In this document: in pieces, positions 4,664-57,101 of the stretch
How the letters are laid out: the number at the start of each line of letters is the position of its first letter
Numbering within the stretch: position 1 is the first letter of the stretch
Source of the DNA: Natronococcus sp. A-GB7
Lineage (GTDB): Archaea; Halobacteriota; Halobacteria; Halobacteriales; Natrialbaceae
Length of the DNA stretch: 64,000 nt
Assembly: GCF_029688865.1 (NCBI RefSeq)
Contig: NZ_JARUKV010000004.1
Coordinates: 124,001 to 188,000, forward strand
Direction of reading: 5' to 3'
Notes under the pieces: generated by a model
Seen by the model: the letters and a program-made list of their open reading frames with translations, nothing else
The model's database searches: none
What the model was told of the DNA's origin: nothing
Translations under genes and position numbers: made by a program

Positions 4664-5029
4664 ATGAGCGCAAGCGACGATCCCCGACGCGTCCACTTCC
4701 AGTCGCCGGAGTACCTGGTCGATCGGCTCGACGCGATCGCGGAGCTCTTCGAGACGGATCGGACGGATCTCCTCGTCGAGGCCATCCGTCAGTACATCGA
4801 GGAGACCGCAGATAGCGAGACGTTCCGGGAGCTAGTCGCGAGGAAGTACTACGACGATCGGCTCGAGTTCGAGACGGTCACGGAGCTGGTCGGCACCGAA
4901 ACCGCCCAGCGGCTTCGGCTCCTCAAAGCTGACCTCGAGGACGAACCGCTCGATCTCGCTGCTCCCGACGACGCGGATATCTACGGCGGCGACGCGGTGA
5001 CGGCCGACACCGACGACGACGGTCGATGA
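4664..5029 (+). CDS. Ribbon-helix-helix antitoxin-like protein
   Basis: A 121-aa acidic protein. Residues about 7-50 (RRVHFQSPEYLVDRLDAIAE...TDLLVEAIRQYIEE) have the strand-helix-helix pattern of CopG/MetJ-type DNA-binding domains. The C-terminal part (about 85-121) is acidic and probably disordered, typical of a toxin-wrapping tail. I start at ATG 4664, directly after the palindromic operator; a longer frame would run through that operator. The stop codon overlaps the start of the PIN-domain gene (ATGA). Likely function: binds and neutralises the PIN protein and represses its own operon. Confidence 0.75.
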   Translation: MSASDDPRRVHFQSPEYLVDRLDAIAELFETDRTDLLVEAIRQYIEETADSETFRELVARKYYDDRLEFETVTELVGTETAQRLRLLKADLEDEPLDLAAPDDADIYGGDAVTADTDDDGR

Positions 5030-5610
5030 ACGGTCGGCCGCAACTCCGAACGGTCGTCGCCGACACCAGCGCGCTCGTCAGTCTCGCCGTGCCCCGCACC
5101 GACACGGACTACGACACCGACGGTGCCCCAGATCCGCTCCAATACCTCCTCACGTCGTGTGACGCAGTCGTGCCGCCGGAGGTGATCGCGGAACTCCGCG
5201 ATATCACGCAGTACCGGGATATACATGGCGCCGCCGCGAGCAACGTCCTCGCGGCCCGCGATCACTACTCGGTCGAGGATCCGTACGAACGCTCCGACGC
5301 CCCGGACTCACGACCAGCGTTCGGCCTCGATGACGGCGAGACCGACGGGATCGTTCTCGCGAACGCGCTCGGTGTCGACGGCTTTCTGACCGACGAGTTC
5401 GGTGGGACGAACTTCCCGCTCATCCACGCGGTCCTCGACGGGCCGCGCATCGTCCCGACGCCGCGACTCATCCGTGACTATGCCCGAAACGGCCACCTGA
5501 CCCACGACGAGGCGAGAACGCTAATCGACGCGATCAGTCCGCACCGAAGCTGGGACGACAGCCCCTACGTCACCCGGATACTGGCACTCCTCGAGGAGGA
5601 ACAACGGTGA
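5026..5610 (+). CDS. PIN-domain ribonuclease toxin
   Basis: A 194-aa protein. It has the PIN N-terminal motif VVADTSALVSLA (first catalytic Asp at about 12-13), a conserved Glu in PPEVIAELRDI, GLDDGETDGIVLANAL (Asp/Glu cluster at about 98-112) and a final acidic pair in FLTDEFGGTNFPLI. This is the order of metal-binding carboxylates expected for VapC-like nucleases. At 194 aa it is longer than classical VapC (about 130), with an N-terminal insertion after the first strand and a C-terminal helical extension. Co-translated with the RHH gene. Target RNA unknown. Confidence 0.78.
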   Translation: MNGRPQLRTVVADTSALVSLAVPRTDTDYDTDGAPDPLQYLLTSCDAVVPPEVIAELRDITQYRDIHGAAASNVLAARDHYSVEDPYERSDAPDSRPAFGLDDGETDGIVLANALGVDGFLTDEFGGTNFPLIHAVLDGPRIVPTPRLIRDYARNGHLTHDEARTLIDAISPHRSWDDSPYVTRILALLEEEQR

Positions 5611-20935: not shown

Positions 20936-21259
20936 TCAGTTGTACCCGCGCCAGCGGTGGCCACACTCCGTACACTTGAAGAATCGGGTCGGCGGTTCGT
21001 CGGCCGAGGCGGTCTGCTTGAGGGTGTACCACGCCTCCTGGGTGCCACACTCGTCGCAGACGACGTCGGTCGCTTTAGGCTTGCCCTCGAAGTTCGCGTC
21101 CTCGCTGGACTCGATTATTTCGTCGTCGGTCTGGGACTCGGTCGTGACGAACTCGCTTTCGGCCTCGCGGTCGCGCTCGCTCGAGGCGCCGCAGTTCGAA
21201 CAGACCATGCGGTCGCCGTCGGCTTTCATCATCGAGCCGCAGTCGTCGCAGAACTGCAT
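20936..21259 (-). CDS. Transcription elongation/cleavage factor TFS
   Basis: A 107-aa protein with two zinc ribbons. N-terminal CDDCG...CSNC has Cys 4, 7, 20, 23. C-terminal CDEC...CTEC has Cys 68, 71, 96, 99. The acidic catalytic pair is intact in QTASADEPPTRFFKC (D87, E88), the hairpin that enters the RNA polymerase funnel to stimulate transcript cleavage. Length and layout match archaeal TFS (RPB9/TFIIS-like). A paralogue at 56235..56552 lacks these acidic residues. Confidence 0.94.
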   Translation of the reverse strand: MQFCDDCGSMMKADGDRMVCSNCGASSERDREAESEFVTTESQTDDEIIESSEDANFEGKPKATDVVCDECGTQEAWYTLKQTASADEPPTRFFKCTECGHRWRGYN

Positions 21260-55500: not shown

Positions 55501-55829
55501 ACGGTCGCCCCTAGGCCGATCCCGCGGATAAGTGGTCAGCAGGAAACATAAGATCGGGTGTAGCAGGGCTCACTCGAGGGTGTAGGGTGTCTCGTTGTGA
55601 TCCCCTTACACCACCTCCTCGATCGGGTATCCGCAACCGGGCGCTCGAACCGGATCCAGGACGAACAGCTGTTCCGTCAGCGTCTCCAGTTCCGTGCGGT
55701 GTTCCAGCGAGGAACGCCACCGATCGGGGGTTCGGTCGCACCGAACCGAGCGCCGGTGACTGCCTCGGACACGGCACCGACGGTATCCGTGTCACCCCCA
55801 GAGACATCGCCACGGAAACGGCCGACGGC

Positions 55830-56079
55830 CGAGAGCATCCGTCGCGCGACCGAGAACGCCCGCTCCGTCGCCGACGAGCTGGCGTGTCGATCGATCGTTC
55901 TTCCCGCAGTCGGGTGTGAAAACGGCGGGTTTTACATCCGCGAGGGTGGGGCGCTCATCCGTCGAACGATCCGGAGCTACGACCCGGAGGTCCTCGAGGA
56001 CATGCGCGTGATCGGGTACACGGATCGCGAACGGAACGCGCTCGAAGCAGCCGCTTCCGAACTGACAGGATCTCGCTGA
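55830..56079 (+). pseudogene. Remnant of a macro-domain (ADP-ribose-binding) gene, C-terminal half
   Basis: In one frame TAESIRRATENARSVADELACRSIVLPAVGCENGGFYIREGGALIRRTI...LEDMRVIGYTDRERNALEAAA matches the C-terminal half of macro-domain proteins (the LPAVGCGxGGF ligand loop is recognisable). The N-terminal half (VVNAAN loop, HAVG strand) is absent. Upstream the same frame is Pro/Ser/Thr-rich, and no other frame supplies it, although an open frame runs from 55597. I read this as a decayed or rearranged gene. Next gene is the degenerate TFS. Confidence 0.5.
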
Positions 56080-56234
56080 CTCTCGTTGCGGCCCGGATTT
56101 CGAACCGCAACGGTGAATAGCACCGTTCGAAACGCTGGACGGCTTTGCGACGGTACTCAGCAGTTGCGTAGCGGCGTTCATTTTCGAAAGGAAGGGAGAG
56201 GGGAGTCTGGGTGAAGAGGACGCGAGATGCGCCG

Positions 56235-56552
56235 TCAGGACTCGCGCCACTTGTGGCTACACTCGACGCAGGTCAACAGCCGAACCTCGTAGGAACCGCC
56301 CGGCTTCGGCATTATCTCGGAGTAGGCCCGGTCGCTGTCGCAGTCGTCCGCTGGGCAGGGCTCCTGCATCGTCTCAGTGGAGTCTTGGGTCGCGTCGGCC
56401 ACGGCAGGTGCCCCGTCGTCCCGCTGCCCCTCTCGAGTCGCCATCGCCGCTTCCGCTTGCGAGTCCCGCGGGTCCTCGTTCTCACAGGAGCGACACACCC
56501 ACGTGTCGCCCTCCGTGTGCATCATCGAACCACACTCGTCGCAGAATTGCAT
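56235..56552 (-). CDS. TFS-like zinc-ribbon protein lacking catalytic acidic residues
   Basis: A 105-aa paralogue of the TFS at 20936..21259; first ten residues MQFCDECGSM are nearly identical. N-terminal ribbon Cys 4, 7, 20, 23. The C-terminal ribbon is altered: C66-x4-C71 instead of CxxC, then C95, C98. The Asp-Glu pair that TFS uses for transcript cleavage is replaced; the hairpin reads PKPGGSYEVRL (82-92). It may therefore bind RNA polymerase without cleaving. Start ATG 56552 by analogy with TFS. Confidence 0.8.
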   Translation of the reverse strand: MQFCDECGSMMHTEGDTWVCRSCENEDPRDSQAEAAMATREGQRDDGAPAVADATQDSTETMQEPCPADDCDSDRAYSEIMPKPGGSYEVRLLTCVECSHKWRES

Positions 56553-56774
56553 TGTGACCGAATCTACGCAGGTGGCAAATATAGGTTTGTGATTCAACTC
56601 CGTTTAGAAAGCAGCGAGCTGTAACGATCGTTCACAGGCGGTACGAGGCGGTTGACTAAGAGCGTCAAAGTCGTCCTCGTATTGCGGTACGTGGTACCGA
56701 GCCGAAGGAACCTCCTCGACGATCCCAGCAGTTTTCTTATTTGTAGACGGCTTTGCGCCACGACCAAGAAATGC

Positions 56775-56988
56775 GGTTGGGACAGATTTGAACCACGCCC
56801 GAGGACCTGCTCGCTTCGCTCGCAGAACCTCGGTCCGGTTCAAACTGCCGTAACAATTTCTGACGAACGCACTCCTCACTGCGTTCGTCGTGTTAGTTCG
56901 TCAGAAATGGGTTGGGGCAGATTTGAACCACGGTCGTTCCGCTCACTTCGTTCGCTTCACTCCCTGATTCAAATCTGCTCAACGTCAC
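56775..56988. repeat. Copies of the tRNA-Val 3' end in direct and inverted orientation
   Basis: Direct copies: 56908-56928 (21 nt identical to 57027-57047 of the tRNA) and a similar one at 56775-56797 (one mismatch over 23 nt with 56910-56932). Each is followed by an inverted partial copy (56965-56985 region; 56834-56850 region), so each unit can fold as a hairpin. Between them lie further inverted repeats: 13 bp ATTTCTGACGAAC/GTTCGTCAGAAAT and 9 bp TTCTGTCGC/GCGACAGAA. Unit spacing is 119-135 bp. The layout suggests repeated integration/excision at, or amplification of, the tRNA end. Confidence 0.6.
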
Positions 56989-57026
56989 GATTCTGTCGCT
57001 CACGGATTTGTTCGCGACAGAAGTAG

Positions 57027-57101
57027 TGGGTTGGGGCAGATTTGAACTGCCGGCCTCCTCCATGTCAAGGAGGTGTCATAACCAGACTAGACCACCAACC
57101 C
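57027..57101 (-). tRNA. tRNA-Val (anticodon GAC)
   Basis: On the minus strand the acceptor GGGTTGG (57101-57095) pairs with CCAACCC (57034-57028), discriminator A at 57027. Anticodon stem CCTCC/GGAGG encloses loop TTGACAT with anticodon GAC. T-arm is GGCAG-TTCAAAT-CTGCC. CCA is not encoded. Length 75 nt, no intron. Confidence 0.95.

Follow-up and report, generated by a model that had tools for sequence, protein, structure and literature searches.

Introduction

In archaea, stalled RNA polymerase (RNAP) is rescued by the transcript cleavage factor TFS. In the Sulfolobales, the accessory TFS paralogue TFS4 (NF047723, PDB 7oqy) has no Asp-Glu (DE) pair and a shortened hairpin whose tip carries two or three lysines; its inhibition is lost when these are changed to AAA, and it is induced by STIV (PMC5715097). 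In TFS4, the N-terminal ribbon contacts the lobe and the upper jaw of RNAP, and the C-terminal ribbon sits in the NTP-entry funnel (PMC8448823). Laboratory mutants set a precedent: processivity falls with the cleavage-dead TFS1-AA, while TFIIS-AA and mutants of Gre behave as dominant negatives (PMC5715097). A 2017 paper pointed out additional tfs genes in Halobacteria without analysing them in its main text (PMC5715097), and a search of the open-access literature found no paper on the family described here.

Coding sequence and domain identity

The window, i.e. the whole stretch of 64,000 nucleotides that was analysed, carries a complete minus-strand open reading frame of 105 aa, named TFS-C here, which runs from the ATG at 56552 to the stop at 56235. 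The plus strand of 56235..56552 encodes no such protein. The coding features are as follows.

56235..56552, minus strand: TFS-C coding sequence, 105 aa plus stop, predicted cleavage-dead TFS/RpoM paralogue; intact, under purifying selection
56478..56552, minus strand: N-terminal zinc ribbon, residues 1-25 (C4, C7, C20, C23); Pfam RPB9 2e-8, 94% mean conservation
56358..56477, minus strand: linker, residues 26-65; from the alignment, 89% mean conservation over 26-64
56241..56357, minus strand: C-terminal zinc ribbon, residues 66-104 (C66-x4-C71, C95-x2-C98); from conservation and alignment, AlphaFold2 strands 75-81 and 90-95
56280..56309, minus strand: new tip PKPGGSYEVR (residues 82-91) in place of the R-A-A-D-E-S-E-T-R of catalytic TFS; from the alignment, 99.7% conserved in 96 distinct sequences
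20936..21259, minus strand: TFS-B, a DE-bearing TFS paralogue used for comparison; one of two DE-bearing copies

The original prediction described a TFS paralogue that shares its N-terminal ribbon with TFS but has lost the cleavage residues, and the analysis bears this out. The N-ribbon matches Pfam Zn_ribbon_RPB9 above the cut-off (2e-8) and keeps the TFS sequence. Residues 2-104 match TIGR01384 TFS_arch (1.7e-8) with 34-35 bits, under the 64.75 cut-off, and the two canonical TFS copies of the same genome, both with DE intact, score 75-81 bits. These copies are TFS-B, in the window, and TFS-A (G000:C12:67820); the earlier designation of 20936..21259 as the true TFS is thus right as to its DE, but that gene is one of two such copies. 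TFS-C resembles TFS (TIGR01384; Saccharolobus TFS1, haloarchaeal TFS/RpoM) in its two ribbons, its length and all eight zinc cysteines, whereas it lacks the Arg, Asp and Glu of the tip, has a tip one residue shorter, a CxxxxC knuckle and an altered linker, and is an accessory, transferred gene rather than a universal one.

The C-ribbon has moved away from its profile: against Pfam TFIIS it reaches 11 bits, where the TFS gene at 21259..20936 reaches 60. Since zinc ribbons are versatile, this departure could indicate an RNAP-independent protein that took another partner, nucleic acid or protein, after the tip was lost. We regard such a change of partner as very unlikely, given that the N-ribbon retains its TFS sequence and that both ribbons and the overall length are kept. 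As for the C-terminal cysteines, the first pair is indeed CxxxxC, as had been predicted, and the second pair (CVEC) is intact. CxxxxC is no defect: the TFS of Halosegnis (L132, L131) has CxxxxC together with an intact ADES tip, and the first knuckle of the yeast Pol III subunit Rpc11 is also expanded. We therefore rejected damage as an explanation of CxxxxC.

The replaced tip and selection

Alignment confirmed the predicted replacement of the DE hairpin by PKPGGSYEVRL. Where catalytic TFS reads Q-I-R-A-A-D-E-S-E-T-R-F, TFS-C has P-K-P-G-G-S-Y-E-V-R-L, one residue fewer, and the cleavage-tip Arg, Asp and Glu are all three replaced. Every one of the 96 distinct full-length members carries PKPGG(S/A)(Y/F)EVR or a near variant, and none has the catalytic Asp-Glu. 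Across these sequences the tip is the most conserved part, above the N-ribbon and the linker, and the new, nearly invariant tip is thus under selection. A divergent relative at 5001-5309 of L129 (Halobacteriales archaeon QH_7_66_36), 54% identical, reads PEPRGSYEVRL and is the sole such tip variant seen.

The median dN/dS of TFS-C is ~0.22, and the window gene and the Natrinema limicola copy differ at 3, 1 and 17 sites at codon positions 1, 2 and 3, respectively. These values rule out a decayed pseudogene and, with the conservation of the tip, say that PKPGGSYEVRL has some specific role. They also speak against a decaying or selfish passenger without host function: broken copies do exist, one frameshifted on Halobacterium pNRC200 and fragments in other genomes, but dN/dS, the invariant tip and a conserved promoter (see below) already contradict this reading, which we consider extremely improbable. 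The pNRC200 copy of Halobacterium salinarum NRC-1 (L145, 8001-8239) lies in IS-rich surroundings, and the 'ATP-binding protein' annotation overlapping it may be spurious.

Origin within haloarchaeal TFS

In a tree of 89 haloarchaeal sequences, TFS-C is nested in TFS-A, where the TFS proteins from Halosegnis rubeus (L132) and a relative (L131) are its sisters; support is 100/98. The same sister group came out when only residues 1-60 were used and when the tip and knuckle columns were left out, which excludes the changed columns as the source of the placement. By this tree, TFS-C is a true TFS paralogue that arose inside the haloarchaeal TFS lineage. The Halosegnis rubeus TFS and its relative (match 5001-5318) represent an evolutionary intermediate: they combine CxxxxC with a catalytic ADES tip that is still in place, so that the change of the knuckle probably preceded that of the tip.

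The original prediction drew a parallel to TFS4, and in the inhibitory feature this likeness fails. Against the TFS4 model NF047723, TFS-C scores 25.5 bits, far under the cut-off of 120; in place of two or three lysines it has PKPGGS with the single tip lysine K83, although its hairpin, too, is shortened, by one residue relative to catalytic TFS. The tree has no crenarchaeal row, and the separateness from TFS4 is read from the nesting and the low TFS4-model score. On these two grounds TFS-C evolved apart from TFS4, a convergent parallel rather than the same family, and is of separate haloarchaeal origin and transferred across many families.

Distribution and horizontal spread

A class-wide search (E < 1e-30) gave a patchy pattern: 132 of the 391 haloarchaeal genomes sampled carry TFS-C, and they represent 48 of 86 genera. 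Identity is 69-93%, except for one 54% relative and one fragment. In the phylum-wide draw all matches fell within the window's own order. None of the eight genomes of the same genus that were searched has the gene, whereas homologues of TFS-A and TFS-B occur in nearly every genome. It occurs on chromosomes and, in many genera, on plasmids or megaplasmids; several genomes have two copies and others fragments. Its annotations there read 'DNA-directed RNA polymerase subunit M' or 'RPA12/RPB9/RPC11 family'.

Silent divergence was compared between genome pairs from eight TFS-C genomes. The median third-position difference is 0.20 for TFS-C compared to 0.39 for TFS-A and 0.40 for TFS-B, and the value is lower for TFS-C in 27 of 28 pairs against TFS-A and in all 21 comparable pairs against TFS-B. 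The TFS-C gene tree is star-like and requires 22 family changes, compared to 32.5 with shuffled labels and a possible minimum of six. Judged from this silent divergence, the star-like phylogeny and an empty site in a relative (see below), TFS-C has recently spread horizontally. The earlier suggestion of a mobile origin therefore stands, in the form of a laterally spreading gene. Virus-borne copies did not appear, with no phage match and none in IMG/VR, where exact peptide patterns only were used and distant copies could escape.

The travelling unit and its promoter

Sequence shared between loci extends beyond the coding region.

56553..56635, minus strand: conserved upstream region, type-2 promoter form; 86% identity over up to 83 bp to L035, also L043, L056 and L068
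56572..56584, minus strand: TATA-like ACCTATATTTGCC, TATAT at -31 relative to the ATG; both promoter types have it there
56158..56234, minus strand: conserved 77 bp past the stop, with which the shared unit ends here; 77-85% identity to L035, L068, L042 and L041

The shared flanks typically comprise 60-100 bp upstream and 70-130 bp downstream, reaching -430 to +400 in some loci, and the surroundings are unrelated. In L050, L039, L083, L077, L055 and L073 the flanks are 80-97% identical across distant genera, with variable ends. Two other explanations of the unit were rejected: a transposon with sharp ends, as the ends of the shared unit differ from locus to locus, and a second gene in the conserved flanks, as the frames are broken between loci. 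The flanks are probably non-coding.

There are two upstream types, and the window has the rarer one, which it has in common with L035, L043, L056, L068 and few others. The placing of TATAT in both types would fit a leaderless transcript. In a set of 18 genomes the core of the main type, GGATCGGAAGTTAACACATATATCCGAC, has 15 occurrences, spread over 14 of them; all lie 18-21 bp before TFS-C and none elsewhere, and its reversed control has no occurrence in the same set. No co-regulated genes and hence no regulon of this element were found in these genomes, where it is confined to TFS-C. Its CGGA/TCCG arms resemble a possible operator. The element was also seen upstream of TFS-C in ~80 loci, e.g. 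L077, L050 and L062.

Gene neighbourhood and the window locus

No neighbour cluster recurs in more than 7 of 74 loci, and a conserved operon or toxin-antitoxin partner was rejected on this count. TFS-C itself has no PADLOC match, and no PADLOC family dominates the 117 nearest neighbours, among which the top family, mad2, has four members only. These results bear on the proposal, close to the original prediction, that TFS-C is an antiviral shut-down factor of the TFS4 type, induced by virus so that transcription is halted and the cell becomes dormant. The two proteins do share a starting protein, the loss of DE, a shortened hairpin and an accessory distribution; TFS-C also has a dedicated promoter, and TFS4 is reported to be induced by STIV (PMC5715097). 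Yet the lysine cluster is missing from the TFS-C tip, the TFS4 model is far from reached, and there is neither a PADLOC match nor a neighbourhood of defence genes, so that this role is quite unlikely. Infection data naming TFS-C were not found in the main texts of the haloviral transcriptome papers searched.

In the window, two further features describe the site.

55558..56778, no strand assigned: segment missing from the nearest relative, G005; 139 bp between the same flanks there
57026..57101, minus strand: tRNA-Val(GAC); partial 3'-end copies at 56909-56928 and 56774-56793

The flank of G005 is ~95% identical to the window, and the 1.2 kb between 55558 and 56778 are swapped for the 139 bp. 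The right edge of the segment falls in the leftmost tRNA-Val 3'-end repeat, and no copy lies on the left, so that the repeats stand on one side of the TFS-C segment only. Each 3'-end copy is 20 bp long, where none is expected by chance, and such repeats occur too in relatives without TFS-C. Because the repeats are one-sided and are found in these relatives, the tRNA is better seen as a hotspot neighbour than as a proven attachment site. The tRNA integration site of the original prediction is accordingly real as to tRNA-Val and its 3'-end copies but unproven as to integrase-mediated arrival. Its decayed, repeat-rich stretch likewise holds in part: the stretch is recombined and repeat-rich, but the TFS-C gene in it is intact by its codon-position pattern.

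Two other sequences lie nearby. At 55597-56079, on the plus strand, a fragment corresponds to the C-terminal portion of a macro domain (22 bits with Pfam Macro), and a similar piece is found at the same place in the same-genus genome G007. A 60-bp palindromic repeat lies between tRNA-Val and TFS-C (56785-56844), and dozens of copies of it, 75-95% identical, are scattered in same-genus genomes.

Predicted structure and likeness to polymerase subunits

The AlphaFold2 model of TFS-C (pLDDT 76) has two zinc ribbons and a long C-terminal hairpin, with the tip at moderate confidence (~64 pLDDT). Using Foldseek against the PDB, we found Rpb9, Rpa12 and Rpc11 at the top and TFS4 (7oqy) at rank 10, with low TM-scores that are probably due to freely placed ribbons. 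A sequence-profile search of the PDB returned matches to Rpb9/Rpa12/Rpc11/TFIIS and TFS4 only. Rpb9 (Pol II), Rpa12 (Pol I) and Rpc11 (Pol III) have the same two-ribbon build as TFS-C, and the expanded first knuckle recurs in Rpc11; these proteins are stable subunits of one polymerase each, whereas TFS-C is an extra mobile gene beside two canonical TFS.

As Rpb9 subunits are among its best matches in fold and sequence, TFS-C could be an Rpb9-like accessory subunit or positive modulator, stably bound to RNAP with the C-ribbon outside the funnel and tuning fidelity or start-site use, e.g. on plasmids. Strong conservation, frequent megaplasmid carriage and the second copy in several genomes would suit such a useful, non-toxic factor. 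On the other hand, one would hardly expect a subunit to occur patchily and to be transferred, TFS-C descends from a cleavage factor, and the tip being its most conserved part suggests that the tip, and not the body alone, contacts something. We regard the subunit role as unlikely, though worth keeping in view.

Proposed function

The reading that we prefer, to which we give about an even chance, is that TFS-C is a horizontally spreading single-gene TFS paralogue that docks on RNAP like TFS, does not cleave, and acts as a conditional antagonist of the canonical factors. Its N-ribbon would dock between the RNAP lobe and the upper jaw, and its C-ribbon would enter the NTP-entry funnel as that of TFS does. 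The Gly-Gly-Ser tip should be unable to position Mg2+ and water, so that RNA would not be cleaved, and from the missing residues we predict that cleavage stimulation is negative. TFS-C could then displace TFS-A and TFS-B from the funnel, which would block the rescue of backtracked polymerase, and the new conserved tip probably hinders movement of the trigger loop. The dedicated promoter may keep TFS-C off until a stress signal, of which virus infection is one possibility.

Engineered TFS1-AA and TFIIS-AA, in which the cleavage residues are changed to small neutral ones, are expected to occupy the funnel without cleavage as TFS-C would; they are laboratory mutants, whereas TFS-C is natural and conserved and its tip is remodelled. 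The effects of TFS1-AA, TFIIS-AA and Gre mutants suggest that TFS-C, as a natural counterpart, should restrain elongation. Inhibition of TFS4 strength needs tip lysines, of which TFS-C has one, and therefore both full shut-down and mere modulation are conceivable. Several points weigh against an antagonist: the TFS-C tip is without the lysines that TFS4 needs, its modelled shape is of modest confidence, the linker is unlike that of TFS, so that docking on RNAP could differ, and the high conservation would equally fit a positive, housekeeping-like role.

We further propose, more tentatively and with less than even confidence, that a second class of RNAP inhibitors has arisen from TFS, independently of TFS4 and with TFS-C as its founder, in which a neutral Gly-Gly-Ser tip stands where TFS4 has lysines; it would form a stand-alone, transferable off-switch of ~0.5-1.1 kb that consists of a promoter and a leaderless gene and has no partner genes.

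Significance

TFS4 has so far been the one well-studied archaeal cleavage factor turned against RNAP. What is new here, as judged from sequence, is a TFS paralogue without the catalytic residues that has evolved separately from TFS4 and is widely exchanged, which makes it a promising candidate for an RNAP regulator or inhibitor that can be transferred. With TFS-C there is a second case to study, in archaea that are amenable to genetics: it comes with an intermediate (the Halosegnis TFS), an invariant tip to mutate and a dedicated promoter whose signal could be sought, and would let one ask whether loss of cleavage alone, with no lysines, yields a regulator of RNAP. TFS-C also raises the question of why a basal transcription factor passes between species like an accessory gene.
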